Positions 11,245 to 30,202 of a DNA stretch of 64,000 nucleotides are shown here, in pieces; position 1 is the stretch's first letter; every line of letters begins with the position of its first letter. Below the pieces are notes generated by a model, which was not told the origin of the DNA, made no database searches, and saw only the letters and a list, made by a program, of their open reading frames with translations. Origin of the DNA: Actinoplanes subtropicus (GTDB lineage Bacteria > Actinomycetota > Actinomycetes > Mycobacteriales > Micromonosporaceae); NCBI RefSeq assembly GCF_000721705.1, contig NZ_JOJL01000040.1, positions 1-64,000 of the forward strand, given 5' to 3'. Made by a program: the position numbers and the translations under genes.

Positions 11245-13734
11245 ATGACGCTGACGGATCGCCGGCCGGGAACGGCGGAGCCGGACGCGGTCTTCGACGC
11301 CTTCCAGAAGTGGGTCACCGAGCAGGGCCTCGCCCTCTACACCCACCAGGAGGAGGCGCTGATCGAGCTGGCCACCGGGGCGAACGTCATCCTCAACACG
11401 CCGACCGGCTCGGGCAAGAGCCTGGTCGCCACCGGCGCGCACTTCATCGCGCTGGCCGGCGGGCGGACGACGTTCTACACCGCGCCGATCAAGGCGCTGG
11501 TCAGCGAGAAGTTCTTCGCGCTCTGCGCCGCCTTCGGGGCGCACAACGTCGGCATGCTCACCGGCGACGCCAGCGTGAACCCGGACGCGCCGATCATCTG
11601 CTGCACCGCCGAGATCCTCGCCAACCTGGCACTGCGCGAGGGCGACGGCGCGGACGTCGGCCTGGTGGTGATGGACGAGTTCCACTTCTACGCCGAGCCC
11701 GACCGCGGCTGGGCCTGGCAGGTGCCGCTGATCGAGCTGCCGCAGGCCCAGTTCCTGCTGATGTCGGCCACGCTGGGCGACACCACCCGCTTCGTCGACG
11801 ACCTGAGCCGCCGCACCGGGCGGGAGACCGCCGTCGTGGCCAGCGCCGAGCGGCCGGTTCCGCTGATCTTCTCGTACGCGATGACGCCGCTGCACGAGAC
11901 GATCGAGGAGCTGCTGCAGACGCATCAGGCCCCGGTCTACATCGTGCACTTCACCCAGGCCGCCGCCCTGGAGCGCGCGCAGGCCCTGATGAGCGTCAAC
12001 ATGGCCACCCGCGCCGAGAAGGACGCGATCGCCGTGGCCATCGGCAACTTCCGGTTCACCGCGGGCTTCGGCCGCCAGCTGTCCCGGCTCGTCCGGCACG
12101 GGATCGGCGTGCACCACGCCGGCATGCTCCCCAAGTACCGGCGGCTGGTGGAGACGCTCGCCCAGGCCGGGCTGCTCAAGGTGATCTGCGGGACGGACAC
12201 GCTCGGCGTCGGCATCAACGTGCCGATCCGCACGGTGCTGTTCACCGGCCTGTCCAAGTACGACGGGGTGAAGACCCGGCTGCTCAAGGCCCGCGAGTTC
12301 CACCAGATCGCCGGGCGGGCCGGCCGGGCCGGGTTCGACACCCTCGGCACGGTCATCGTGCAGGCGCCCGAGCACGTCATCGACAACGAGCGCGCCCTGG
12401 CGAAGGCCGGCGACGACCCGAAGAAGCGGCGCAAGGTGGTCCGCAAGAAGCCGCCGGAGGGCACGATCGGCTGGGGCCAGCCCACCTTCGACCGGCTTGT
12501 GGCCGCCGACCCCGAGCCGCTGACCAGCTCGTTCCAGGTGTCGCACGCGATGCTGCTGAATGTGATCGCGCGCGGCGGGGACCCGTTCGCGGCGATGCGG
12601 CACCTGCTCACCGACAACCACGAGGAACCGGGCGCGCAGCGCCGGCACATCCGCCGGGCGATCGCGATCGCCCGGGCCCTCGTCGCCGGGGGCGTGATCG
12701 AACGTACCCAGGACGGGGTTTATCGGCTGGTCGAGGATCTGCAGCTCGACTTCGCGCTGAACCAGGCCCTCTCCCCCTTCGCCCTGGCCTGCCTGGAGCT
12801 GCTCGACCGGGAGGCGCCGGACTATCCGCTCGACGTGGTGTCGGTGATCGAGGCGACCCTCGAGGACCCGCGCCAGGTGCTGTCCGCGCAGCGCACCAAG
12901 GCGCGCGGCGAGGCGGTCGGCGCGATGAAGGCCGAGGGCATCGAGTACGAGCAGCGGATGGAGCTGCTGGAGGACGTCACCCACCCGCGCCCGCTGCTGG
13001 AGCTGCTCGAGGGCGCGTATGAGACGTACCGGCAAGGCCACCCGTGGGTCGCCGACTACGAGATCAAACCCAAGTCGGTCGTACGGGACATGTACGAGCG
13101 GGCGATGACCTTCACCGAGTACGTGTCGTTCTACGGGCTGTCCCGCTCGGAGGGCCTGGTGCTGCGGTATCTCGCAGACGCGTACCGGGCGTTGCGGCAG
13201 ACCGTGCCGGAGGACGCGCGGACCGAGGAGCTCACCGATCTGATCGAGTGGCTCGGCGAGCTGGTCCGGCAGGTCGACTCGTCGCTGCTGGACGAGTGGG
13301 AACGCCTGCGCAACCCGGGTGCCGCGCTCGAGGAGGTACGCCTCGACGACAAGCCGCCGGCGGTCACCCGCAACGCGCGGGCGTTCCGGGTGCTGGTCCG
13401 CAACGCGCTCTTCCGCCGGGTCGAGCTGGCCGCGCTGCGCCGCTGGGACGAGCTCGGCGAGCTGGACGCGGAGGCCGGCTGGGACCGGACGGCGTGGGCG
13501 GAGGCGATGGCGCCCTACTTCGAGGAGTACGACGAGGTCGGCACCGGGCCGGCGGCGCGCGGGCCGGCGTTCCTGCACATCGACGCGGGCCCGGCGGTGT
13601 GGACGGTCCGGCAGGTCTTCGAGGACCCGGACGGCGACCATGACTGGGGCATCTCGGCGACGGTCGACCTGGCGGCGTCGGACGAGGCGGGCGCGGCCGC
13701 GGTGACGGTCACGGCCGTCGGCCCGCACGGCTGA
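11245..13734 (+). CDS. DEAD/DEAH-box helicase with DUF3516 C-terminal domain
   Basis: An 829-residue superfamily 2 helicase of the Ski2-like actinobacterial group. Walker A is NTPTGSGKSLVATG near residue 55, Walker B is VVMDEFHFYAEPDRGW, motif III is LLMSATLGDTTRF and motif VI is QIAGRAGRAG. The last 350 residues, rich in charged helices, match the DUF3516 region that defines this family. It is predicted to unwind nucleic acid using ATP, probably RNA, though the physiological target is unknown. Its stop codon overlaps the ATG of the next gene by one base, so it may share an operon with the two-component system. Confidence 0.88.
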   Translation: MTLTDRRPGTAEPDAVFDAFQKWVTEQGLALYTHQEEALIELATGANVILNTPTGSGKSLVATGAHFIALAGGRTTFYTAPIKALVSEKFFALCAAFGAHNVGMLTGDASVNPDAPIICCTAEILANLALREGDGADVGLVVMDEFHFYAEPDRGWAWQVPLIELPQAQFLLMSATLGDTTRFVDDLSRRTGRETAVVASAERPVPLIFSYAMTPLHETIEELLQTHQAPVYIVHFTQAAALERAQALMSVNMATRAEKDAIAVAIGNFRFTAGFGRQLSRLVRHGIGVHHAGMLPKYRRLVETLAQAGLLKVICGTDTLGVGINVPIRTVLFTGLSKYDGVKTRLLKAREFHQIAGRAGRAGFDTLGTVIVQAPEHVIDNERALAKAGDDPKKRRKVVRKKPPEGTIGWGQPTFDRLVAADPEPLTSSFQVSHAMLLNVIARGGDPFAAMRHLLTDNHEEPGAQRRHIRRAIAIARALVAGGVIERTQDGVYRLVEDLQLDFALNQALSPFALACLELLDREAPDYPLDVVSVIEATLEDPRQVLSAQRTKARGEAVGAMKAEGIEYEQRMELLEDVTHPRPLLELLEGAYETYRQGHPWVADYEIKPKSVVRDMYERAMTFTEYVSFYGLSRSEGLVLRYLADAYRALRQTVPEDARTEELTDLIEWLGELVRQVDSSLLDEWERLRNPGAALEEVRLDDKPPAVTRNARAFRVLVRNALFRRVELAALRRWDELGELDAEAGWDRTAWAEAMAPYFEEYDEVGTGPAARGPAFLHIDAGPAVWTVRQVFEDPDGDHDWGISATVDLAASDEAGAAAVTVTAVGPHG

Positions 13735-15155
13735 TGTCCGCACCCGGAGGCCGCGGTTCCGGGGGCGCGGGCGGGCGGCTGTCCCGGCGACGCCAGCTGG
13801 TCGGGTCCGGGCTCGCGGTCGCCGGCTTTCCGCTGCTCGCGCTGGTCGCGCACGCCTCCGGGCTGGGGCTGACCGGGGACATCCCGCTCTTCCTGGCGGC
13901 GGTCGTCGGGGTCGCTCTGGTCGGCGGGCGGTGGCCGGCGCTGGTCGCGGCGGTCGGCGGGTTCCTGCTGCTCAACTACTTCTTCGTGCCGCCGCTGCAC
14001 ACGCTCGCCATCGCCACCCGGTCCAACCTGGTCGCGGTGACGGTGTTCGTGGTGGTGGCGCTGGCCGTGTCTTGGGTGGTCGACCTGGCCGCCCGGCGCA
14101 CCCGGCAGGCGGACCGGGCGGCGGCCGAGGCGCACACCCTGGCCACGATCGCCGGGGCGGTGCTGCGGGCGGCCGACCCGCTGGACGCGCTGTTGCGGCA
14201 GCTCCGGGACACTTACGGCCTGAGTTCGGTCACCCTGCTGGAACAAACGGCCGCCGGCTGGCAGCCGGCCGCGACCGTCGGCGATGGATCCGGCGACGAC
14301 GAACTGCGCGTGACCGCCGACCAGTCGGTCACCCTCGTTCTCCGAGGACCCAAGCTCAGCCCCGCCGACCAGCGGATCGTGCGGGCCTTCGCCGCCCAAT
14401 CCGCCGTCGCCCTGCGGCAACAACGGCTCATGGTGGCGGCCGAGGGCGACCGGGTACGGGCCGCACTGCTCGCCGCCGTCAGCCATGACCTGCGGACGCC
14501 GCTCGCGTCGGCCAAGGCCGCGGTGGCCGGGTTGCGCAGCCCCGAGGTCGAGTTCGGCCCCGAGGACCGGGACGAGCTGCTGGCCACCGCCGAGGAGTCG
14601 CTCGACCGGCTGACCGGGCTGGTGGCGAACCTGCTCGACATGAGCCGGCTGCAGGCGGGGGCGCTCGGGATGACCCCGGCCGACGTCGGCCTCGAAGAAG
14701 TGGTGCCGCGGGCGCTGGACGAACTGGGCGCGGCCGGGCGGACCGTCGCGGTGAAGCTGCCCGACGACCTGCCCGCGGTACGCGCCGACCCGGGGCTGCT
14801 CGACCGGGTGCTGGTCAATCTGCTCGGCAACGCGCTGCGCTACTCCCCGGCCGGGCGGCCGCCGGAGATCACCGGGGCGGCCGCCGGCCGGCGGGTCGAG
14901 CTGCGGGTGGTCGACCACGGGCCGGGCATCCCGGCCGACAAGTGGGAGCAGGTGTTCCTGCCGTTCCAGCGGCTCGGCGACCGGAACACCCACGACGGGG
15001 TCGGGCTCGGGCTCGCTCTCGCCCGCGGGCTCGCCGAGGCCATGGGCGGAACGCTGGAGCCGGCCGCGACGCCGGGCGGGGGGCTTACCATGATCTTGGC
15101 GCTTCCCGGGGCGGGGGCTTCGCCCGTACCCGCACATTGTTTCGAGGTTGAATGA
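13734..15155 (+). CDS. KdpD-like sensor histidine kinase lacking the N-terminal KdpD domain
   Basis: A 473-residue membrane kinase. Residues about 20-110 form a four-helix DUF4118 membrane domain (GDIPLFLAAVVGVALVGG, NYFFVPPLHTLAI). A GAF-like region follows, then HisKA with HDLRTPLASAKAAV and an ATPase domain (LLGNALRYSPAG, DHGPGIP, GVGLGLALARG). The usual KdpD N-terminal sensor and Usp regions (about 370 residues) are absent. It overlaps the helicase by 1 bp and the response regulator by 4 bp (ATGA). No kdpFABC genes are near, so the regulated target is open. Confidence 0.85.
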   Translation: MSAPGGRGSGGAGGRLSRRRQLVGSGLAVAGFPLLALVAHASGLGLTGDIPLFLAAVVGVALVGGRWPALVAAVGGFLLLNYFFVPPLHTLAIATRSNLVAVTVFVVVALAVSWVVDLAARRTRQADRAAAEAHTLATIAGAVLRAADPLDALLRQLRDTYGLSSVTLLEQTAAGWQPAATVGDGSGDDELRVTADQSVTLVLRGPKLSPADQRIVRAFAAQSAVALRQQRLMVAAEGDRVRAALLAAVSHDLRTPLASAKAAVAGLRSPEVEFGPEDRDELLATAEESLDRLTGLVANLLDMSRLQAGALGMTPADVGLEEVVPRALDELGAAGRTVAVKLPDDLPAVRADPGLLDRVLVNLLGNALRYSPAGRPPEITGAAAGRRVELRVVDHGPGIPADKWEQVFLPFQRLGDRNTHDGVGLGLALARGLAEAMGGTLEPAATPGGGLTMILALPGAGASPVPAHCFEVE

Positions 15156-19410: not shown

Positions 19411-20097
19411 ATGGAGTTCTGGGGTGACGCGGCGCGCTGGAATCCCGAGATCGCCGGGATCGACGAAACACATCGAGCGTGGCAGGACGAATTCGATCGG
19501 CTCGGCCTGCCGTTGGTGGCGCACGCGCGGGACGTGGCGAACCCGCATCGCTCGGCGACCGTCGCGAACGGCGACCGGACCGCGGACCTGTTGCTCGGCA
19601 TGCGCGGGCGAAGCTTCTACCTGGTCCTGCGCCGACAGCAGAACACATCGCTGCAGGGCTTCGCCCCGAGCCTGACGGCGGCGGCGCACGCTGCCCAGTT
19701 GTGGCTGTCCGGGGCGCGGCCGGGCGAGGTCGCCGCGGAATGGCCTTTCCTGGGATCGGTGGCGCTGGCCGAGGCCCGTGAGCGCGGCGACCAACGCAAA
19801 GCGAAGTGGCTCTGGATGTACGAGAACCATTGCGCGGACCTGATAGCCGTACGGCTGAGTTCCTTTGTCAGCCTGGCATTCCACGAGCCGCCCGTGCGCG
19901 TGCTGTGGCCGCAGACCAGCCATTTCGTCCTGCACCTCAGCGCGACTCCGGGTTGGCCGGGCACCGGCGACACGCCGGTCATCGATCCCGTGGGGGAAAC
20001 CGGCCGGTACCTGGTACGGACGCACACCGGCGAGGTCCACCCCGATGTCGACGCCGCCCGTGTCCTCCGCCTCGTGCTGGCGGCACTGCCGGCTTAG
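19411..20097 (+). CDS. DUF6193-like protein of unknown function
   Basis: A 228-residue cytosolic protein. The central run GDRTADLLLGMRGRSFYLVLRR followed by AAAHAAQLWLSGARPGEVAAEWPFL resembles the DUF6193 family, which is named for its presence in natural-product loci. It has no signal peptide or membrane segment. It converges on fxsT with a 4-bp overlap, so it may border or belong to the FxS region, although it runs on the opposite strand. The family match is by eye and not certain. Confidence 0.55.
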   Translation: MEFWGDAARWNPEIAGIDETHRAWQDEFDRLGLPLVAHARDVANPHRSATVANGDRTADLLLGMRGRSFYLVLRRQQNTSLQGFAPSLTAAAHAAQLWLSGARPGEVAAEWPFLGSVALAEARERGDQRKAKWLWMYENHCADLIAVRLSSFVSLAFHEPPVRVLWPQTSHFVLHLSATPGWPGTGDTPVIDPVGETGRYLVRTHTGEVHPDVDAARVLRLVLAALPA

Positions 20098-23000
20098 AAG
20101 GGGTTCGGGTCGAGCGTCCGGTGCAGATACCGCCGCTCGCGCAGCGCCTCCACCGCCGGGTGGGTCGGGCCCAGCGCCGCGGTGAGGCGGCGCAGCGCCT
20201 CCTGCTGCTCCTCCGGCGCCGCGCCGTACAGCGAGCGCCGCATCAGGACCAGGTTGGCCACGCAGCGGGCCGTGTCCGGGTGCTCGTCGCCCAGCACCCG
20301 CGCCGTGCGCTCGGACAGCGGCTCCAGCAGGTCGTAGCCGGCCGCGACCGCCCCGGCCTCGGCCATGAAGATCGCCTGGTTCATCCGGGCGGCCAGCGTG
20401 TAGGGGTGACCGGATCCGAGCGTTCGATCGAAAGCGGTCGCGGATTGCTCCGCCAGCTCCCGTGCCTCCGCCGCGTCGCCCATCGCGCGGGCGACCGCCG
20501 CCCGATTGCTCACACAGGTGACCGTGTACGGGTGGTCCTCGCCGAACCGGGCCCGGTAATGGCGCTCGATCTCGATCAGTTCGGCGCCCGCGCTGCGCGG
20601 CTCGCCGATCGCGAGCAGGTTGACCGCGCGGCTCATCCGGCAGAAGAGCGTCTCCGGCGCCTCCGGTCCCAGGAGCTGATTGAGATTCTCGTACGCGATC
20701 TCCAGGCGCTCCGCCGCCTCGCCCGATCGGCCCGCGCTGCGCTCGGAGACGGCCAGATTCGTCATGGCGCCGTAGGTCCGCGGCGCGGAATCGCCCAGCA
20801 CCGCCCGGTGGCGGGCGAGGATGTCGCGCAACAGGGTGATCGACTCGTCGTACTCGCCGGCCTCGCGCAGGTCACGACCGAAGTTGACGCCGGCGGTCAG
20901 GGTGAGCGTGTGGGTGCGCCCGACGATCAGCATCGCCCGGTCGTAGACCTGCCGTGAGCGATCGCGAGCGGCCCGGATCTCGCCGGCCATCCGCAGCGAG
21001 GTGGCGAGGTTGTTCTGCGCGTTGAGCGTGCGGGGGTAGTCCTCGCCGAAGTACTCGACCCACGCCGCGACGGTCTGCTCGTCGAGCTTGCGGGCGTCCG
21101 CGTAGCGGCCGAGCGCCCGCAGGTCGCGCCCGAGGCCGGCCGCGGTGATCAGGGTGTGCGGGTGGTGCTCGCCCAGCAGGTCACGCTGCGCGGCGACCAC
21201 CTCCTCGTCGGTCCGCAGCGCCTGCTCGAACTCGGCCCGGTCGCAGAGGATGTTCGCCAGGTTGTACCGCAACTGCAGGGTCTGCCGGTCGAGCACGAGC
21301 CGCTCGGCCGGGTCGGTGATCGATTCGCGCAGCAGCGCCCACCGGCGTACGGACTCCTCCCCGGCCCGCTGGCCCTCGGCGAGGTCGCCCGAGGTCCACA
21401 GGAAGCGCAGCCGGTCGATGACCAGCCGGCGCACCGCCTCCTCGTGCGACTGCCAGGCCCGGGAGACCTCCAGGTGCGGCCAGATCTGCTGGAATCGCGG
21501 CCAGTTCGCCGGATCGTCCACCTCGCCGGACGGGCGGGCGGCGGCCAGCACGAGGTGCGCCTCCCGGCGGGCGAGGTCGCGCTCATCGGCGGTCATCCGC
21601 TGCCGCACCACGCTCTGGATGATCCGGTGCACCCGGATCGTGCCGGTGCCCACGTCGAGCTTGAGCAGGGCGAGCCGGTTGATGTCCTGCACCAGCCGGC
21701 CGCGGTACATCGCCTCGCCCACCAGCGGGTCGAGCGGCTCCAGCAGCGACGCCATCCGATCGCCGTAGACCAGGTCGAGCGCCACCTCGGGGGCCAGCAC
21801 CGAACACAACTGCAGCAGCCGGTACGCCGCGGGCGAGCGCTCGGCGAGCCGGCGCAGCGACAGATCCCACACCGGCTCGAGGTTGTCCGGCACGAACTGC
21901 TCGAGATGGGTCAGGTATTCGCCCACCGAGGTGCCGGTGTCGGCCAGCCACGCGCCCGCGGCGGCGACCGCGATCGGCAGGTCGCCGAGCGCCTCGCCGA
22001 GCCGGGCCGCCTCGTCCGGCCGCATCGTCGGGACGCGGCGGCGCAGGTGCGCGATGCTCTCCCGGCGATCGAAGACGTCCACCTGGATCGTCTCGGCGCG
22101 GTCGCTCCACTGCGCGTCCCGCGAGGTGATCACGACGTGGCCGCCCGGCCCGGTCGGCAGGAACCGGGTGACCGCGTCGATGTCCTCGGCGTTGTCGAAG
22201 ATCATCAGCCAGCGGGGCAGGGCGGTGCCCCGGTTGAGCGCGGAGAGCGCCGCGCGGGCCTGGTCGGCGATCGTGCCGCCGCCGGTCAGGCCCAGCTCCC
22301 GGCCGAGCTCGGCGAGCTGGGTGTCGATGAAGGTGACCGGGTCCGCGTTGATCCACCAGACGAAGTCGTACGCGTTGCGGAACCGGTGCGCGTACTCCAT
22401 CGCGACCTGGGTCTTGCCGATCCCGCCCATGCCCTGCAACGCGACCGGGGAGGCGCCGGAGAGCACCACCGGGCTGGCGCTGGTCTGCAGCCGGGTGCGC
22501 AGGTCGTCGAGGTCGTCCTCGCGGCCGGTGAACTGGACGTTGCGGATCGGCGCGTTGAACAGCAGCGTGGCCCGGCCGGGGAAGCGCAGGCCGATCCGCT
22601 CCCGATCGAAGGTGCTCATCTGGTGGCCGAGCAGCTGCAGCAGGCGGCTGGCGGCGACCTCCTCGGTCTGCCCGACCAGGAACGCCGAATCGGCCTCGGT
22701 CTGGCCGCGCAGCGGGCGCACGTCGGCCACGTAGACGACCAGCGGGGTGCGGGCGTCGCCACGATCGCGCGGCACCCGGGCCTCCTCGGCGTCCACATTG
22801 GCCGGCGACACGATGGTGAGCGGCCGGCCGTCGGGCATCGGCGCGCTGTCCGCGTCCAGCCCGGTCGGCGCCGGGTTGACGGTGACCCCGACCGATCGCA
22901 GCACCCGCGAGATCCATTCCGCCCAGAGCCGGTCGTCGGGCGCGAAGCGCAGCGCGACGGCGGTCTCGGGCAGCACGGTCGGGCGGACGAACCGGGCCGC

Positions 23001-23963
23001 GGTGCTCTCCCGCAGCGACTCGTCCATCGGCGGCAGCGACGTCACCTCGCCGTCGGTCAGGTAGCCGGCGAGCGTCTCGTAGGCGGCCAGCATCGAGGTG
23101 CGCGATCCGGGGCGGTCGCCGAAGGTGGCAAGCGTTTCCTCGTACGCGTAGAAGGGTTGGTAGGGAACCTCGACGGTGGACCAGTACGCCTCGCGCTCGG
23201 CCGGCGTCATCCCGCTCGGCAGGCCGGTGAACCGCTGGCGGGCGGCGAGCCGGCCGGCGTCCGCGCGCTTCTTCTCGGCCAGGTCGACACGCATCGGGAC
23301 CGGAAGGATCCGGATCGGCCGCCGGCCCTTCTGCCGTGCCACCCCGGCCGCGATCGTGGCGGCGCCGTCGATGCCCTGCTCACTGAAGGTGAAGCAGTCC
23401 ACCAGGACGTCCGGCATGTGGACCGTGCAGATGCCGGCCACGTCGCTCCACCCGGTGCGGCTGTCCAGCAGCGCGTAGTCGTACTTGTTCTTCATGTCCT
23501 CGCGCAGGGCGTCGAACAGCTGGCCGCCGCCGTAGCGGGTGTAGAACTCGTCCCAGTCCCGCTCGTAGACGCTGCGCGCGTAGTCCTGGTTCTGGTTGCC
23601 GGCCGGCAGGAAGTCGAGCCGCCCGCCGGTCGGGAAGTGCCGCCACGACAGGGTGAACGCGTGCCGGTCGGCGCTCGCGAAGTCCCGGTGCCAGTCCTCG
23701 GGCCGCGGCGTGTCGACCATCGTGGCCTGTTCGTAGCGGCGGACCAGCTCGATGATGCCGCCGGCGCTGTCGTACGCGACCGGGTCGATGAACGGCCGGA
23801 AGAACCGGTGCAGCCCCGGCGACTCGAGATCCCAGTCGGCGGCCAGCACCCGCTTGCCGTTGGCCGCCAGGATCCAGGCCACGTTGGCCAGCGCCATGGT
23901 GCGGCCGGTCCCACCCTTGTACGAGTAGAACGTGACCACCTTGCCGGCGTGGTCCTCAGTCAT
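20094..23963 (-). CDS. fxsT: FxS-system STAND protein: ParA-like, TIR-like, NB-ARC and TPR domains
   Basis: A 1289-residue protein. Residues 8-60 form a MinD/ParA-like ATPase start (KGGTGRT at 16-22, then AADWDLESPGL). Residues about 335-450 look like a degenerate TIR-type domain. An NB-ARC core follows (FTGREDDL at 478, P-loop GMGGIGKT at 511-518, WLMIFDNAED as Walker B). From about 880 to the end are tetratricopeptide repeats with the RLGEDHPYT-like spacing. This matches the tetratricopeptide protein that accompanies FxSxx-COOH peptides. Its molecular job is unknown; STAND proteins usually sense a ligand and oligomerise. It lies 54 bp after fxsB in the same operon. Confidence 0.85.
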   Translation of the reverse strand: MTEDHAGKVVTFYSYKGGTGRTMALANVAWILAANGKRVLAADWDLESPGLHRFFRPFIDPVAYDSAGGIIELVRRYEQATMVDTPRPEDWHRDFASADRHAFTLSWRHFPTGGRLDFLPAGNQNQDYARSVYERDWDEFYTRYGGGQLFDALREDMKNKYDYALLDSRTGWSDVAGICTVHMPDVLVDCFTFSEQGIDGAATIAAGVARQKGRRPIRILPVPMRVDLAEKKRADAGRLAARQRFTGLPSGMTPAEREAYWSTVEVPYQPFYAYEETLATFGDRPGSRTSMLAAYETLAGYLTDGEVTSLPPMDESLRESTAARFVRPTVLPETAVALRFAPDDRLWAEWISRVLRSVGVTVNPAPTGLDADSAPMPDGRPLTIVSPANVDAEEARVPRDRGDARTPLVVYVADVRPLRGQTEADSAFLVGQTEEVAASRLLQLLGHQMSTFDRERIGLRFPGRATLLFNAPIRNVQFTGREDDLDDLRTRLQTSASPVVLSGASPVALQGMGGIGKTQVAMEYAHRFRNAYDFVWWINADPVTFIDTQLAELGRELGLTGGGTIADQARAALSALNRGTALPRWLMIFDNAEDIDAVTRFLPTGPGGHVVITSRDAQWSDRAETIQVDVFDRRESIAHLRRRVPTMRPDEAARLGEALGDLPIAVAAAGAWLADTGTSVGEYLTHLEQFVPDNLEPVWDLSLRRLAERSPAAYRLLQLCSVLAPEVALDLVYGDRMASLLEPLDPLVGEAMYRGRLVQDINRLALLKLDVGTGTIRVHRIIQSVVRQRMTADERDLARREAHLVLAAARPSGEVDDPANWPRFQQIWPHLEVSRAWQSHEEAVRRLVIDRLRFLWTSGDLAEGQRAGEESVRRWALLRESITDPAERLVLDRQTLQLRYNLANILCDRAEFEQALRTDEEVVAAQRDLLGEHHPHTLITAAGLGRDLRALGRYADARKLDEQTVAAWVEYFGEDYPRTLNAQNNLATSLRMAGEIRAARDRSRQVYDRAMLIVGRTHTLTLTAGVNFGRDLREAGEYDESITLLRDILARHRAVLGDSAPRTYGAMTNLAVSERSAGRSGEAAERLEIAYENLNQLLGPEAPETLFCRMSRAVNLLAIGEPRSAGAELIEIERHYRARFGEDHPYTVTCVSNRAAVARAMGDAAEARELAEQSATAFDRTLGSGHPYTLAARMNQAIFMAEAGAVAAGYDLLEPLSERTARVLGDEHPDTARCVANLVLMRRSLYGAAPEEQQEALRRLTAALGPTHPAVEALRERRYLHRTLDPNPF

Positions 23964-24017
23964 CCCGTTGCCCTCTCACCGAGCGTGCCCCGGCGGACCA
24001 CCCTATCGCCGCGTCGA

Positions 24018-26072
24018 TCAGTGCCAGCCGTCAACCGTCGCCGCCATCCGCGTGGTGAGGTGCCGGCCGGCCGGGGTGAGCCCGTCCCCCGCTCGCAATG
24101 CGGCGATCGCCTCCGCCGTCCAGTCCCGGTACATCGTGTACCGCGCCCTGAGCCCGGGCTCACGCTCGCTGCGCCGCCGCCACATGTCGGCGATGGCCAG
24201 ATGCGCGTAGGCCCCCTGCAAGGCCGCCTCGACCGGCCGCGGATCCGGCCGCCACCCCACGCTCAGGTGTTCCGGAGTGTTCGGATCCACCAGATCGATC
24301 AGATCCAGCACGGCCCCCAGTTTGGTGTGCTGAAACTCGTGCACCAGCAGAACGGCCAGGTCTTCGGCCTTCGGGGTGAAGGCGATCCCCACCGCTCCGA
24401 AGGCGTCACGAGAGGTGGCGCTCCGCTGAGTCCCGTCACCCGGCGGTGCCAGCGGGGTGATCACCTTGATCCCGCGGCGCAGCCCCTCGGCACCGGACGG
24501 CGCATCGGTGAGAATCACCTCCCACGCTTCCGCCAGCACCGCCTCCCACGGCGAGTCGTCGGCCTCGGCCACCGGAAAACCAAAGACGTCACGGTAGGGA
24601 TCGGCATCGTCGATCACGATCGTGGATCCGCCGAACGATACGAACCGATCCGGAGATTCGCCCAGCGAGTCCATCCGATCGAGATCGGGCGACGACTCCT
24701 CCAGGCACCTCACCGCCCACGCCCGCACGTAGGGCCGCCCGATCGCCGCGTTGAAGGCCACCGGGTCGGAACGCTCCAGCTCCGGCAACCCGCGCCCGCC
24801 GAAGCGCGCGATCACCTCACCCACCAGCGCCCGATTGATCGCCAACTCCTCGGCGGCGAGCGCCTCGACCGCCCGCGCGTCGCCGAAGCCGTAGGCGATC
24901 TGATCGAACACGTCCGACGGCAGCGACCCGATCGACGGCGGCGCGGGTTGCGAGTTGAGAGTGATGATGAGCTCCTTGAGGTCGTCGCAGTAGACGGACG
25001 GGTTCTCGAAACCGTCGCCACCGCTGTCCGGCCGGTACCGGTGCGCCCGCAGCCCGCCTCCGCACTGCCGTACCACCTCGCACGCCCGGCAGGTCGAAGA
25101 CAGCGCCGCCATCCCCGCCCGCCGGCGCCGCATCGCCGGCTGGGCGGTCACCTCGTCCGCGCTGTGCTCGAAGATGGTCAGCCCGGTCGCACCCGCACCG
25201 TCCCACGTGGTCTTCATCGAGTCGGGCTCCTCCCAGGCACCGTCCGTCTCGATCACCACGAGGTCCCCGGCGTCGATCCCGACCGCTTCGGTGCCGCTGG
25301 GCCCACCGACCGCCAGCGCTCCCAACGAGTCGAAGAGCCGGATCGGCACCGGCCGCCCGTCCGCCACCCACCGCTCGTGAACCGCCAACAGCCATCGCGC
25401 GTAGGGCCGCCCGTCCCGGCCCCGCTCCGCCAACCCGACCGGCGGATGCGCCCAGGTCCCATGCGGCAACAGCAGGTCGATCCGCGGCGGGTCCTGCTCG
25501 ATCAACGACGCATAGACGGCCACCGGATCGTTGGCGATGTCGACCGTGCACAGCAGCCCGGCGTAAACCGATCGGAATCGATCACTCCGGAGCACCCCGA
25601 TCCCCCGCAGCGTCCGCTCATAACTGCTCGCGCCGCGCCGGAACACCCGATGCCGATCGTTCGCCGACCGATCGCCGTCGAGCGACACCCCGACGCGCAC
25701 CCCGGCCTCGAGCAGCACCTCGGCGTGCGCGGCGTCCAGTCGTACGCCATTGGTCTGCATCCGGAGATCGAGCCGGCACACCGCACCGATCGTGCCGCGC
25801 AACTCGGTGAGCAACGCGCGCAGACGAGCCGGCCCGAGCAGAAGCGGCTCACCACCGTGCAGAATCACGCTGACCTGGGCCAAGTCGTGCGCCGCGGCAT
25901 GCTCGGCGATCCGCCGGGCCGCGACCGAAGCGGTCGCGAGCGACATCAACGGCGGCCGGCCACGCCAGGACTGATCGGCGTGCTCATAGACGTAACAGTG
26001 ATCGCAGGCCAGATCGCACCGGCTCGCCACCTTGAGCACGTAGTGGCGCAGCGGCCGCCACGGAGCGCTCAC
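24018..26072 (-). CDS. fxsB: Radical SAM/SPASM peptide maturase fused to a HEXXH domain
   Basis: A 684-residue enzyme. The [4Fe-4S]-SAM motif CDLACDHC (Cys19, Cys23, Cys26) opens the radical SAM barrel. A SPASM cysteine set follows near 340-385 (CRACEVVRQCGGG ... YCDDL). The last third contains VHEFQHTK (HEFQH at 578-582), a HEXXH domain often fused to peptide-modification enzymes. The FxsB family is known to form a three-residue cyclophane in FxS precursors. It starts with GTG 17 bp after the fxsA stop, so it is probably translated from the same mRNA. The HEXXH part could be a peptidase or second modifying domain (inference). Confidence 0.9.
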   Translation of the reverse strand: MSAPWRPLRHYVLKVASRCDLACDHCYVYEHADQSWRGRPPLMSLATASVAARRIAEHAAAHDLAQVSVILHGGEPLLLGPARLRALLTELRGTIGAVCRLDLRMQTNGVRLDAAHAEVLLEAGVRVGVSLDGDRSANDRHRVFRRGASSYERTLRGIGVLRSDRFRSVYAGLLCTVDIANDPVAVYASLIEQDPPRIDLLLPHGTWAHPPVGLAERGRDGRPYARWLLAVHERWVADGRPVPIRLFDSLGALAVGGPSGTEAVGIDAGDLVVIETDGAWEEPDSMKTTWDGAGATGLTIFEHSADEVTAQPAMRRRRAGMAALSSTCRACEVVRQCGGGLRAHRYRPDSGGDGFENPSVYCDDLKELIITLNSQPAPPSIGSLPSDVFDQIAYGFGDARAVEALAAEELAINRALVGEVIARFGGRGLPELERSDPVAFNAAIGRPYVRAWAVRCLEESSPDLDRMDSLGESPDRFVSFGGSTIVIDDADPYRDVFGFPVAEADDSPWEAVLAEAWEVILTDAPSGAEGLRRGIKVITPLAPPGDGTQRSATSRDAFGAVGIAFTPKAEDLAVLLVHEFQHTKLGAVLDLIDLVDPNTPEHLSVGWRPDPRPVEAALQGAYAHLAIADMWRRRSEREPGLRARYTMYRDWTAEAIAALRAGDGLTPAGRHLTTRMAATVDGWH

Positions 26073-26089
26073 CCCGCGGCGATCGGCGG

Positions 26090-26245
26090 TCAGATCCCGG
26101 AGGAGAACGGCGTCACCACGCCCCGGTCCCGCCGCACGATCCGCCGCACGACCTGAGCGGACGCTTTGCGATCGATCTGATCGATCGGGCTCGTGCGGGC
26201 CTCGTCAAGTGGCGTTTTCTGAACGTTTTCCACCTGTGCGAGCAT
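26090..26245 (-). CDS. fxsA: FxSxx-COOH precursor peptide
   Basis: A 51-residue peptide too short for most gene callers. It begins MLAQVENVQKTPLDEAR, has a charged middle (VVRRIVRRDRG) and ends exactly PFSSGI, so the final five residues are F-S-S-G-I and fit the defining C-terminal FxSxx rule. The gene is immediately upstream of the radical SAM maturase and on the same strand. The C-terminal F-S-S is the expected cyclophane site and the N-terminal part the leader. The ATG has no strong RBS, so the start is less certain than the end. A nearby GTG four codons on is the alternative start. Confidence 0.85.
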   Translation of the reverse strand: MLAQVENVQKTPLDEARTSPIDQIDRKASAQVVRRIVRRDRGVVTPFSSGI

Positions 26246-26343
26246 AGACAACACTCGAGGTCATGTCACGGCCACCACGAGTGACAGGAACGGTCGCCAC
26301 AAACCCGGCGCCGGGTGTCCGACCGGCACACTAGGGTGAGTCC

Positions 26344-26979
26344 ATGGCCGAACCGGAGATCACGGTCCTGGAGGCGCTGCACTCCACGCCCGCCCGCCGC
26401 TACCTGTCGCCCGAGCCGATCGGCGACGACATCATCCGCAAGCTGCTCGACGCGGCGATCCGCGGCCCCAACGGCGGCAACACGCAGCGCTGGGCCTGGA
26501 TCGTCCTGCGCGACCCGGCGGTCAAGGCGCAGATCGCCGCCTTCTACCGGGAGGGCTGGGAAAAGCTCTACGGCGTCCACCGCGACTTCATGCTCGCCCA
26601 GCCGGAGTCCACCGGCGGCCAGGGCCCCGCCAACTTCCGCGCCGGCGACCACCTCGCCGCCCACATCGAGGAGGCCCCGGTCTGGATCTTCCCGGTCCTC
26701 CTGGGCGCCGCCGCCTCGACCAACCCCCGCCTGGGCGCCTCGATCTACGGCGCCGTCCAGCAACTGATGCTCGCCGCCCGCGCCTACGGCATCGGCTCCA
26801 CGCTCACCACCCTCTACTCCGGCCACGAGGCCGAGACCCGCACCCTGCTCGGCCTCCCCGACGACGCCCTCACCATGGCCCTGGTCCCCCTCGGCTACCC
26901 GAGCCGAGGCCGCTGGACCGAGCCGAAACGCCGCCCCCTCGAAGAGGTGGTCTTCAACGACAAATACCAAACCACTTGA
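26344..26979 (+). CDS. Nitroreductase family FMN oxidoreductase
   Basis: A 211-residue flavoprotein. The N-terminal STPARRYLSPEPI segment, the FMN-binding GGNTQRWAWIV stretch and the later AARAYGIGSTLTT are hallmarks of the nitroreductase fold, which reduces nitro compounds, quinones or flavins with NAD(P)H. The ATG at 26344 is preceded by AGGGTGAG. It is divergent from fxsA with a 98-bp shared control region, so a link to the FxS locus is possible but not shown. A dispersed repeat begins directly after its stop. Confidence 0.85.
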   Translation: MAEPEITVLEALHSTPARRYLSPEPIGDDIIRKLLDAAIRGPNGGNTQRWAWIVLRDPAVKAQIAAFYREGWEKLYGVHRDFMLAQPESTGGQGPANFRAGDHLAAHIEEAPVWIFPVLLGAAASTNPRLGASIYGAVQQLMLAARAYGIGSTLTTLYSGHEAETRTLLGLPDDALTMALVPLGYPSRGRWTEPKRRPLEEVVFNDKYQTT

Positions 26980-28441: not shown

Positions 28442-30202
28442 TCAGGCGGCCAGGGCCGCGTAGCGACCGCCGGCGCCGACCAGCACCTCGTGGGTGCCGG
28501 ACTCGGTGACGCGCCCGTGGTCGACCACCACGATCTGGTCGGCGTCGCGGATCGTGGACAGGCGGTGCGCGATGGTGACCGTGGTACGGCCGCGGGACAG
28601 CTCGTCGAACGCGCGCTGCACGGCCCGCTCGGTCTCGTTGTCCAGCGCGCTGGTCGCCTCGTCGAGCACCAGGATGCGCGGGTCGCGCAGCAGGGTGCGG
28701 GCGATCGCGATGCGCTGTTTCTCGCCGCCGGAGAAGCGGTGGCCGCGGGAGCCGACCATGGTGTCGTAGCCGTCGGGCAGGGCGGCGATCACGTCGTGGA
28801 TCCTGGCCGCGCGGGCGGCGGCCTCGATCTGCTCGTCGGTGGCGTCGGGCCGGGCGTAGCGCAGGTTTTCCCGGACCGTGGTGTGCAGCAGGTACGTCTC
28901 CTGGCTGACCACGCCGACGATCGACGCGACGTCGGCCAGGGCCAGGTCGCGCAGGTCGACGCCGTCGATGGTGACCCGGCCGGCGGTCGGGTCGTAGAGC
29001 CGGGCGATCAGCGCGGCGATCGTGCTCTTGCCGGAGCCGGTCTCGCCGACCAGGGCCAGGGAAGAGCCGGCCGGCACGTCGAGCGTCACGCCCGCCACGG
29101 CCGCGGTCTCACTGCCCGGGTACGCGAAGGTCACGTCCTCGAAGCGCAGGTGACCCCTCGGCTCGGCCAGCACCACGGGCCTCTCCGGCTCGTCGATCTC
29201 CACCGGCAGGTCGAGATACTCGAAGATGCGGGCGAACAGGGCGAGCGAGCTGGTCAGCTGGACGCCGACGCTCATCAGGCCCAGCAGCGGCCGGAACAGC
29301 CCGGCCTGCAGCGCGGTGAACGCGACCAGCGTGCCGATCGAGAGGTGGCTGAACGGCAGGCCGGCCGCCAGGTAGATGACCGCCGGGATGGCCGCGAAGA
29401 CGATGCTCATCGACGCCATCCGCCAGCGGCCGGCCAGCTCGGAGCGCAGCTCGAGGTCGATCAGGCGGCGGGAGGAGGCGGTGAACCGCTCGATCAGGGC
29501 CGGCGCGGTGCCCATGGTCTTGGCCAGCTGGACGCCGCTGATCGACAGGCCCTCCTCGATCGTGACGTTGAGGTCGGCGAGCTCGCGCTGGCGCTGCGCG
29601 GTGATCTCGCGGCGCATCCGGGCGACCCGTTTCGACAGCCAGACCGCGGGCGGCAGCACGGCCAGCGAGACCAGCGAGAGCTGCCAGGACAGGGCGGCCA
29701 TGGCGACCAGCGTGGCGATCGCGGTGGTGAGATTCGCCGCGATCGAGGTGGCGGTGGAGGTGACCACCGACTCCATGCCGCCGATGTCGTTGGTGATGCG
29801 CGACTGCACCTCGCCGGTGCGGGTGCGGGTGAAGAACCCGATCGACTGGCGCTGCAGGTGGGTGAAGACGTCGGCGCGCAGCCGGTGCATCACCCGCTGG
29901 CCGACGGACGTGGAGATCCAGGTCTGGACGACGCCGAGCGCGGCGGTCACGGCGGCGACGGCGACCATGCCGAGCACCAGCCAGACCAGCAACGCCAGAT
30001 CGGCCTGCGGGAGGGCTCGGTCGATCACCTCGCGCAGCAGGAACGGGGAGGCCATGCCGATGATCGACGAGGCCACGATGATCAGGACGACGACGGACAG
30101 GGACCAGCGGTGGGTGGTGAACAGGCCGCCGATGCGGCGCAGCGAGACCTCGCGCGCCTGTTTCCGCTCGGCGGCGGTGAGCTTGGGATCGGGCCTTGGC
30201 AA
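28442..30202 (-). CDS. ABC exporter, fused permease and ATPase
   Basis: A 586-residue half-transporter. The N-terminal 300 residues hold six transmembrane helices of the exporter type I fold. The C-terminal ATPase has Walker A GETGSGKSTIA, a Q-loop at VSQETYLLH, signature FSGGEKQRIAIARTLL, Walker B ILVLDEATSAL and the switch His in IAHRLSTI. It probably works as a homodimer exporting lipids or drugs. The start is TTG at 30202, placed 5 nt after GAGAAGG. It is divergent from a MarR regulator, with a perfect palindrome between them. Confidence 0.88.
   Translation of the reverse strand: MPRPDPKLTAAERKQAREVSLRRIGGLFTTHRWSLSVVVLIIVASSIIGMASPFLLREVIDRALPQADLALLVWLVLGMVAVAAVTAALGVVQTWISTSVGQRVMHRLRADVFTHLQRQSIGFFTRTRTGEVQSRITNDIGGMESVVTSTATSIAANLTTAIATLVAMAALSWQLSLVSLAVLPPAVWLSKRVARMRREITAQRQRELADLNVTIEEGLSISGVQLAKTMGTAPALIERFTASSRRLIDLELRSELAGRWRMASMSIVFAAIPAVIYLAAGLPFSHLSIGTLVAFTALQAGLFRPLLGLMSVGVQLTSSLALFARIFEYLDLPVEIDEPERPVVLAEPRGHLRFEDVTFAYPGSETAAVAGVTLDVPAGSSLALVGETGSGKSTIAALIARLYDPTAGRVTIDGVDLRDLALADVASIVGVVSQETYLLHTTVRENLRYARPDATDEQIEAAARAARIHDVIAALPDGYDTMVGSRGHRFSGGEKQRIAIARTLLRDPRILVLDEATSALDNETERAVQRAFDELSRGRTTVTIAHRLSTIRDADQIVVVDHGRVTESGTHEVLVGAGGRYAALAA

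Follow-up and report, generated by a model that had tools for sequence, protein, structure and literature searches.

The window analysed here, a 64,000-nucleotide stretch of contig NZ_JOJL01000040.1 from the soil actinobacterium Actinoplanes subtropicus, carries on its minus strand a three-gene FxSxx-COOH locus, in which a precursor peptide gene (fxsA) is followed by a radical SAM/SPASM maturase fused to an alpha-ketoglutarate (aKG)-HExxH peptide hydroxylase (fxsBH) and by fxsT. With a probability of roughly 0.6, we read these genes as one operon whose product would be an intracellular, cyclophane-bearing and oxygenated peptide that is read by FxsT. The locus is real and was rightly spotted from the raw sequence in a first-pass annotation, which proposed a ribosomally synthesized and post-translationally modified peptide (RiPP) locus of the FxSxx-COOH kind; the precursor end, FxsB and FxsT are all present. 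This kind of system and a close chemistry have already been described. What is new here is the start codon with its promoter, the fused hydroxylase, and the loss of FxsC. Feature coordinates are collected in Table 1.

Precursor Peptide and Its Promoter

Homologous loci were gathered by a maturase scan of a species-genome collection, which returned 350 candidate loci, the 80 best being kept, and by a genus search that yielded 18 further loci, 12 of which were set aside as matching loci already included and 6 added (86 in total). The minus-strand open reading frame (ORF) at 26245–26090 (ATG, 51 codons) reads, as first annotated, to ...VVTPFSSGI-stop, and is separated from the maturase GTG by 17 bp (26073–26089). 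When a bare rule was applied, namely an in-frame FxSxx-stop located between 60 bp inside and 300 bp upstream of the maturase, such an end was found in 78 of the 86 loci, as compared with 81 of 15808 positions picked at random on the same strand of these loci and of the window stretch. This matched control replaced an earlier one (66 of 4350 random stretches), which demanded 40 open codons where the real count did not. Since L022 among the 78 was a wrong-frame match, exact FxSxx-COOH ends were counted as 77/86, and this conservation against the random places rules out a chance ORF. The remaining nine loci, read by eye, have variant ends: FQASI in L022 and L030, FNNSL in L086, one extra residue in L051, L057 and L074, a two-residue extension in L033, and FNSEI followed by a 13-residue tail in L062 and L063. 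Ala or Asn thus replaces the Ser to be cross-linked in L022, L030 and L086, where the HExxH motif of FxsBH is intact, and a substrate variation at the third residue is possible for these precursors. A precursor-like ORF with a doubled core (GNFNSFI twice) was also observed upstream of a stand-alone FxsB in L154.

A protein search detected peptides with 80–98% identity in metagenomes, and a Paractinoplanes globisporus peptide of 81% identity that UniRef names FXSXX-COOH protein. PDB entry 8fje was rejected as a peptide match, as it gave weak matches to a repetitive chain with no single significant stretch. The description of fxsA as a missed gene holds in part: the related peptides P0006, P0007 and P0017 are labeled FXSXX-COOH protein in UniRef and hypothetical in other sources.

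All 12 Actinoplanes-clade loci (the window and 11 others) share the identical element GTGACATGAC-N7-GTTGTCTATGCT upstream of fxsA, and its exact form is absent from the 75 other loci examined. It fits the −35 and −10 boxes with the 17-nt spacer listed in Table 1. With up to 3 mismatches allowed, the element occurs nowhere else in the 11.26-Mb genome, and it is the sole promoter-like site in 19700–26500, where 0.2 are expected. The ATG originally assigned as the start (26245–26243) falls within this conserved −10 box, so that GTG 26233, which leaves 47 codons, is the likelier start. As this GTG lies only 7 nt past the −10 box, the fxsA transcript is probably leaderless, or close to it. Database records hold both forms; P0017 has 47 residues from the corresponding place, and P0013, P0015 and P0016 have 51 from the ATG. 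P0014 reads Y-A across the box, which breaks the ATG frame, and has a GTG 6 nt later (nucleotides deduced from the protein). Nine of the 11 remaining clade members have a GTG of their own that is preceded by a run of purines, for instance CTGGGGGAC or GGGGGAA, and this run may represent a ribosome site.

Maturase Fused to a Hydroxylase

The maturase belongs to the FxsB family as annotated, with 527 bits to TIGR04269 in the NCBIfam scan (cut-off 370). Another maturase family was rejected, as the next best model, YhhB, scored 327 bits, under its cut-off of 445. The same chain matched the aKG-HExxH hydroxylase model TIGR04267 with 157 bits (cut-off 40), a C-terminal domain on which the first-pass annotation was silent. 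Both domains therefore reside in one chain, and its HExxH is intact. The three cysteines of CxxxCxxC and the residues H578, E579 and H582 are invariant in 28 aligned sequences; the 13 of 94 rows in the maturase tree that lack the HExxH motif are not represented in this alignment. This tree was built with a quick method and has 36 of its 91 inner branches starred; the 13 rows are L043, L047, L051, L052, L054, L057, L062, L063, L065, L141, L142, L143 and L145, and they correspond to three separate changes in the fused enzyme. The window fxsBH evolves somewhat faster than its relative L008: its nonsynonymous divergence (dN) to L012 is 0.276 versus 0.219, and the synonymous divergence (dS) is raised too (0.82 versus 0.51).

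The residues preceding the core Phe differ between rows with and without HExxH. V or I is located three before Phe in 68/81 rows with the motif versus 3/13 without it, and T, S or I stands right before Phe in 5/81 versus 11/13. For the 76 exact cores beside an intact HExxH, V is three before Phe in 64 and A immediately before it in 46; the nine cores beside a lost HExxH have V at the former position in two and T at the latter in seven. Only two independent pairs lie on supported branches, which is too few for a covariation test of the hydroxylation site.

Both halves of FxsBH resemble in predicted fold, and in the intact HEFQH, the enzyme ChlBH (radical SAM fused to aKG-HExxH) and the solved aKG-HExxH domain SjiH. 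The window locus differs from these in its single FxSxx core, which contains no Asp/His. The triceptide enzyme MscB forms a cyclophane between Phe C4 and Ser Cbeta (PMC11002830). The window locus shares with it Phe at position i, Ser at i+2 and a radical SAM/SPASM maturase; its own product is a prediction.

Loss of FxsC beside an Intact fxsT

The neighboring gene encodes FxsT, as proposed (NF040586, 892 bits; cut-off 300), with a KGGTGR MinD/ParA-like ATPase at residues 8–205 and NB-ARC plus TPR repeats at 472–1288. Judging by the appearance of the alignment, residues ~330–465 are possibly a worn TIR-like segment. Pfam TIR_2 matched it at an E value of 0.14 only, and in the structure searches the hits to the ATPase domain took up the listing.

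The first-pass annotation was right that FxsC has no gene alongside; only 54 bp separate fxsBH from fxsT. Its description of the locus as complete does not hold, as FxsT lies downstream on the same strand in 78 of the 86 relatives, and 77 of these 78 have FxsC/TIR matches in between that have been lost here. In these 78, maturase and FxsT are never closer than 994 bp. The close loci with ORFs listed (L008, L009 and L012) have two FxsC/TIR genes in the gap, which in L008 encode an FxsC of 395 residues and a TIR-like protein of 222 residues that exceeds the FxsC N-terminal cut-off. The exception is L038 of Actinoplanes solisilvae, in which the FxsC place is taken by a reverse-strand FxsT-family gene (11258–13735; NF040586, 328 bits, cut-off 300) with NB-ARC and TPR. 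Among the eight relatives with no FxsT downstream, one is cut by a contig end, and L064 and L081 have FxsT matches upstream. Genome-wide searches, the earlier of which had no positive control, did not find FxsC in the window genome; NF040588 matched five of seven Actinoplanes genomes, the two without a match being those of the window and L038. On the maturase tree, FxsC presence changes twice in the 79 rows counted.

The ratio of nonsynonymous to synonymous differences (pN/pS) of fxsT was 0.49 for window–L008, 0.45 for L008–L009 and 0.55 for L008–L012. No relaxation is seen in the window line, since dN to L012 is equal for the window (0.207) and L008 (0.206).

Proposed Mechanism and Alternatives

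We propose that one promoter would drive fxsA-fxsBH-fxsT as a single transcript, and that the FxsA leader would be bound by the radical SAM half of FxsBH. By analogy to MscB, this half is predicted to join the Phe ring to Cbeta of the second Ser in F-S-S, with a loss of 2 Da. The aKG-HExxH half may then add oxygen at or beside the ring, an order of steps taken from homologs. The modified peptide would be retained in the cell, where FxsT, an NTPase of the STAND type that bears TPR repeats, could read its free carboxyl end, which is sequence-fixed at the very end; the peptide may thereby serve FxsT as a conflict/immunity or signaling ligand. FxsC TIR proteins probably act downstream in most relatives, and since FxsC is gone here, FxsT would work alone or via another partner. 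A bolder version, which we consider doubtful, has the modified tail of FxsA acting inside the cell as the ligand that switches FxsT, with TIR proteins as an optional effector layer dropped by two Actinoplanes lineages.

The components largely agree with the known FxSxx-COOH system (FxsA, TIGR04268/NF040585; FxsB, TIGR04269; FxsC, NF040588/TIGR04276; FxsT, NF040586) in the precursor end, maturase, FxsT, order and strand. The differences are the absence of FxsC, a usual but non-obligatory partner, and a precursor unmatched by both FxsA models. The peptide-processing conflict systems of Kaur et al. (eLife 2020, PMC7159879) likewise combine an FxSxx peptide, a radical SAM enzyme, a zincin-like protein, and an NB-ARC/TPR plus MinD/ParA-like protein. 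The zincin-like domain is fused in the window locus and is now read as a hydroxylase. A literature search on FxsA/FxsB/FxsC/FxsT gave no Fxs-protein paper by title among the matches listed, and a broad search on cyclophane gave only synthetic chemistry among the matches listed. Among the matches listed for SjiH there was nothing of use, and PMC12360287 and PMC13060819 contributed nothing decisive. No account of FxSxx peptide function was found in the literature searched.

Several points weigh against our interpretation. No NCBIfam or Pfam model matches the window peptide, with TIGR04268 and NF040585 both failing, and a failure of the FxsA profile had been set beforehand as refuting the annotation; yet the genomic comparison overrules this outcome. 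When six related peptides were scanned, four were unmatched (Actinoplanes P0006, P0013, P0017 and L012) and two were below the cut-offs, so that the FxsA models appear narrow. The model score is a means of recognition and not a defining trait, and the genomic comparison is decisive. The residues noted above only hint that the segment preceding Phe is involved in hydroxylation, as the covariation sample comprises three HExxH losses and L033 and L074 are counterexamples. ChlBH, for its part, acts on Asp and His, of which the core here has neither. Mild fxsT relaxation is possible because the pS values are high. Moreover, the product and the transcript are predicted from the genes, and the link between FxsT and the peptide is a proposal. 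In the same genome, contig C11 has FxsB with no FxsT match beside it, and C24 has FxsT with no FxsB found.

It is conceivable, though unlikely in our view, that the C-terminal peptide is cut loose from its leader by the HExxH half, which would then be either a metalloprotease or an enzyme that cleaves the backbone oxidatively. The 2020 analysis attributed release of the C-terminal peptide to the HExxH protein, read there as a peptidase (PMC7159879), and the same-family PflC/PosC cleave the backbone oxidatively with small residues favored (PMC12636437). No other protease was noticed next to fxsA, and A, S or T is located two before Phe in 74 of the 76 exact cores beside an intact HExxH. The domain, however, matches aKG-dependent hydroxylases in both sequence and fold, and its fused relative ChlBH hydroxylates. 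Export of the product as an antibiotic or intercellular signal, as for many RiPPs, seems improbable. An ABC transporter is indeed encoded at 28442–30202 and has a close copy (87–88% identity) in L008 and L009 within the fetched 20 kb, but these are the only two of 80 FxsBH loci with close copies in the fetched flanks, and 10 more loci had matches that were short or 22–34% identical. The usual neighbor is instead a predicted intracellular NTPase, with FxsT matches in 75 of 80 loci.

The absence of FxsC might also mean that the locus is decaying, with FxsC lost first and the rest to follow. FxsC is missing separately in L038, which accounts for the two tree changes, and the L038 fxsT shows a dN to L008 of 0.279 versus 0.206 for L012. 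We hold such decay to be improbable as well, for the three remaining window genes are intact ORFs, their promoter element is identical in all 12 loci, and fxsT of the window line has no excess of amino-acid change. It is very unlikely that fxsC appears missing through misassembly of the draft of 215 contigs. Although the short-gap form is known from one draft assembly, the junction is a clean 54-bp gap inside one contig, and the FxsC search that was negative for this genome was positive in five of seven.

Locus Layout, Neighboring Genes, and Other Fxs Loci

Table 1. Features of the fxsA-fxsBH-fxsT locus in the window.
Feature	Position	Strand	Details
fxsA precursor peptide	26090..26233	minus	47 codons from GTG 26233; leader + C-terminal core VVTPFSSGI
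F-S-S, predicted three-residue cyclophane	26099..26107	minus	Phe ring to third-residue Ser Cbeta, by analogy to MscB
fxsBH, radical SAM/SPASM cyclophane maturase fused to aKG-HExxH peptide hydroxylase	24018..26072	minus	684 aa; GTG start 26072
FxsB radical SAM/SPASM domain	24957..26051	minus	CxxxCxxC at residues 19-26; TIGR04269 529.5 bits at this place
aKG-HExxH domain	24045..24536	minus	residues 513-676; HEFQH 578-582 = nt 24341-24327; TIGR04267
Gap in place of relatives' FxsC/TIR genes	23964..24017	minus	54 bp, between fxsBH and fxsT
fxsT	20094..23963	minus	1289 aa; ATPase + possible TIR-like segment + NB-ARC/TPR
Promoter (predicted)	26241..26269	minus	−35 GTGACA 26269-26264; 17-nt spacer; −10 TATGCT 26246-26241

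On the plus strand, a DUF6193 gene (19411–20097) overlaps the fxsT end tail to tail, and no relative of it was found in the fetched flanks of 80 related loci. A nitroreductase-family gene (26344–26979, plus strand) is divergent from fxsA; it is probably unrelated, as relatives occur in only two of 80 FxsBH loci (L008 and L009). The adjacent vWA and MoxR genes that mark a VMAP ternary conflict system were not detected among the neighboring ORFs scanned in 13.7–34.9 kb, which were part of the ORFs there and included several with no Pfam match. In PADLOC, the generic radical SAM region and the KGG ATPase region were all that matched.

The genome holds six Fxs places including the window, with FxsT at five, FxsB at three and FxsC at none. 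TIGR04268, silent at the window peptide, found another FxsA above its cut-off on contig C3, an FxSxx precursor ending in IAGFNSAL (38.8 bits). At this place (L171, 3453–5090 and 7691–10129), a separate aKG-HExxH gene follows the precursor, FxsT is on the other strand, and no FxsB-like ORF was seen in the 12 kb read. This hydroxylase may act on a precursor that has no local cyclophane maker. Contig C19 encodes FxsB, a separate HExxH protein and two FxsT, and C2 encodes an HExxH protein and a 1428-residue protein, in which FxsT (889 bits) lies behind a SAV_2336-type N-terminus.

Implications

The curated FxsA models miss the precursors of an Actinoplanes clade. In the window, evolution has separated the parts of the system, leaving the peptide, maturase and FxsT without FxsC, which suggests that whatever maintains these three genes does not require FxsC. 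The three-gene set is also small enough for rebuilding in a laboratory strain. If the doubtful proposal of an internal ligand switching FxsT were true, this operon would offer a cyclophane-based peptide-sensor pair in its minimal natural form.
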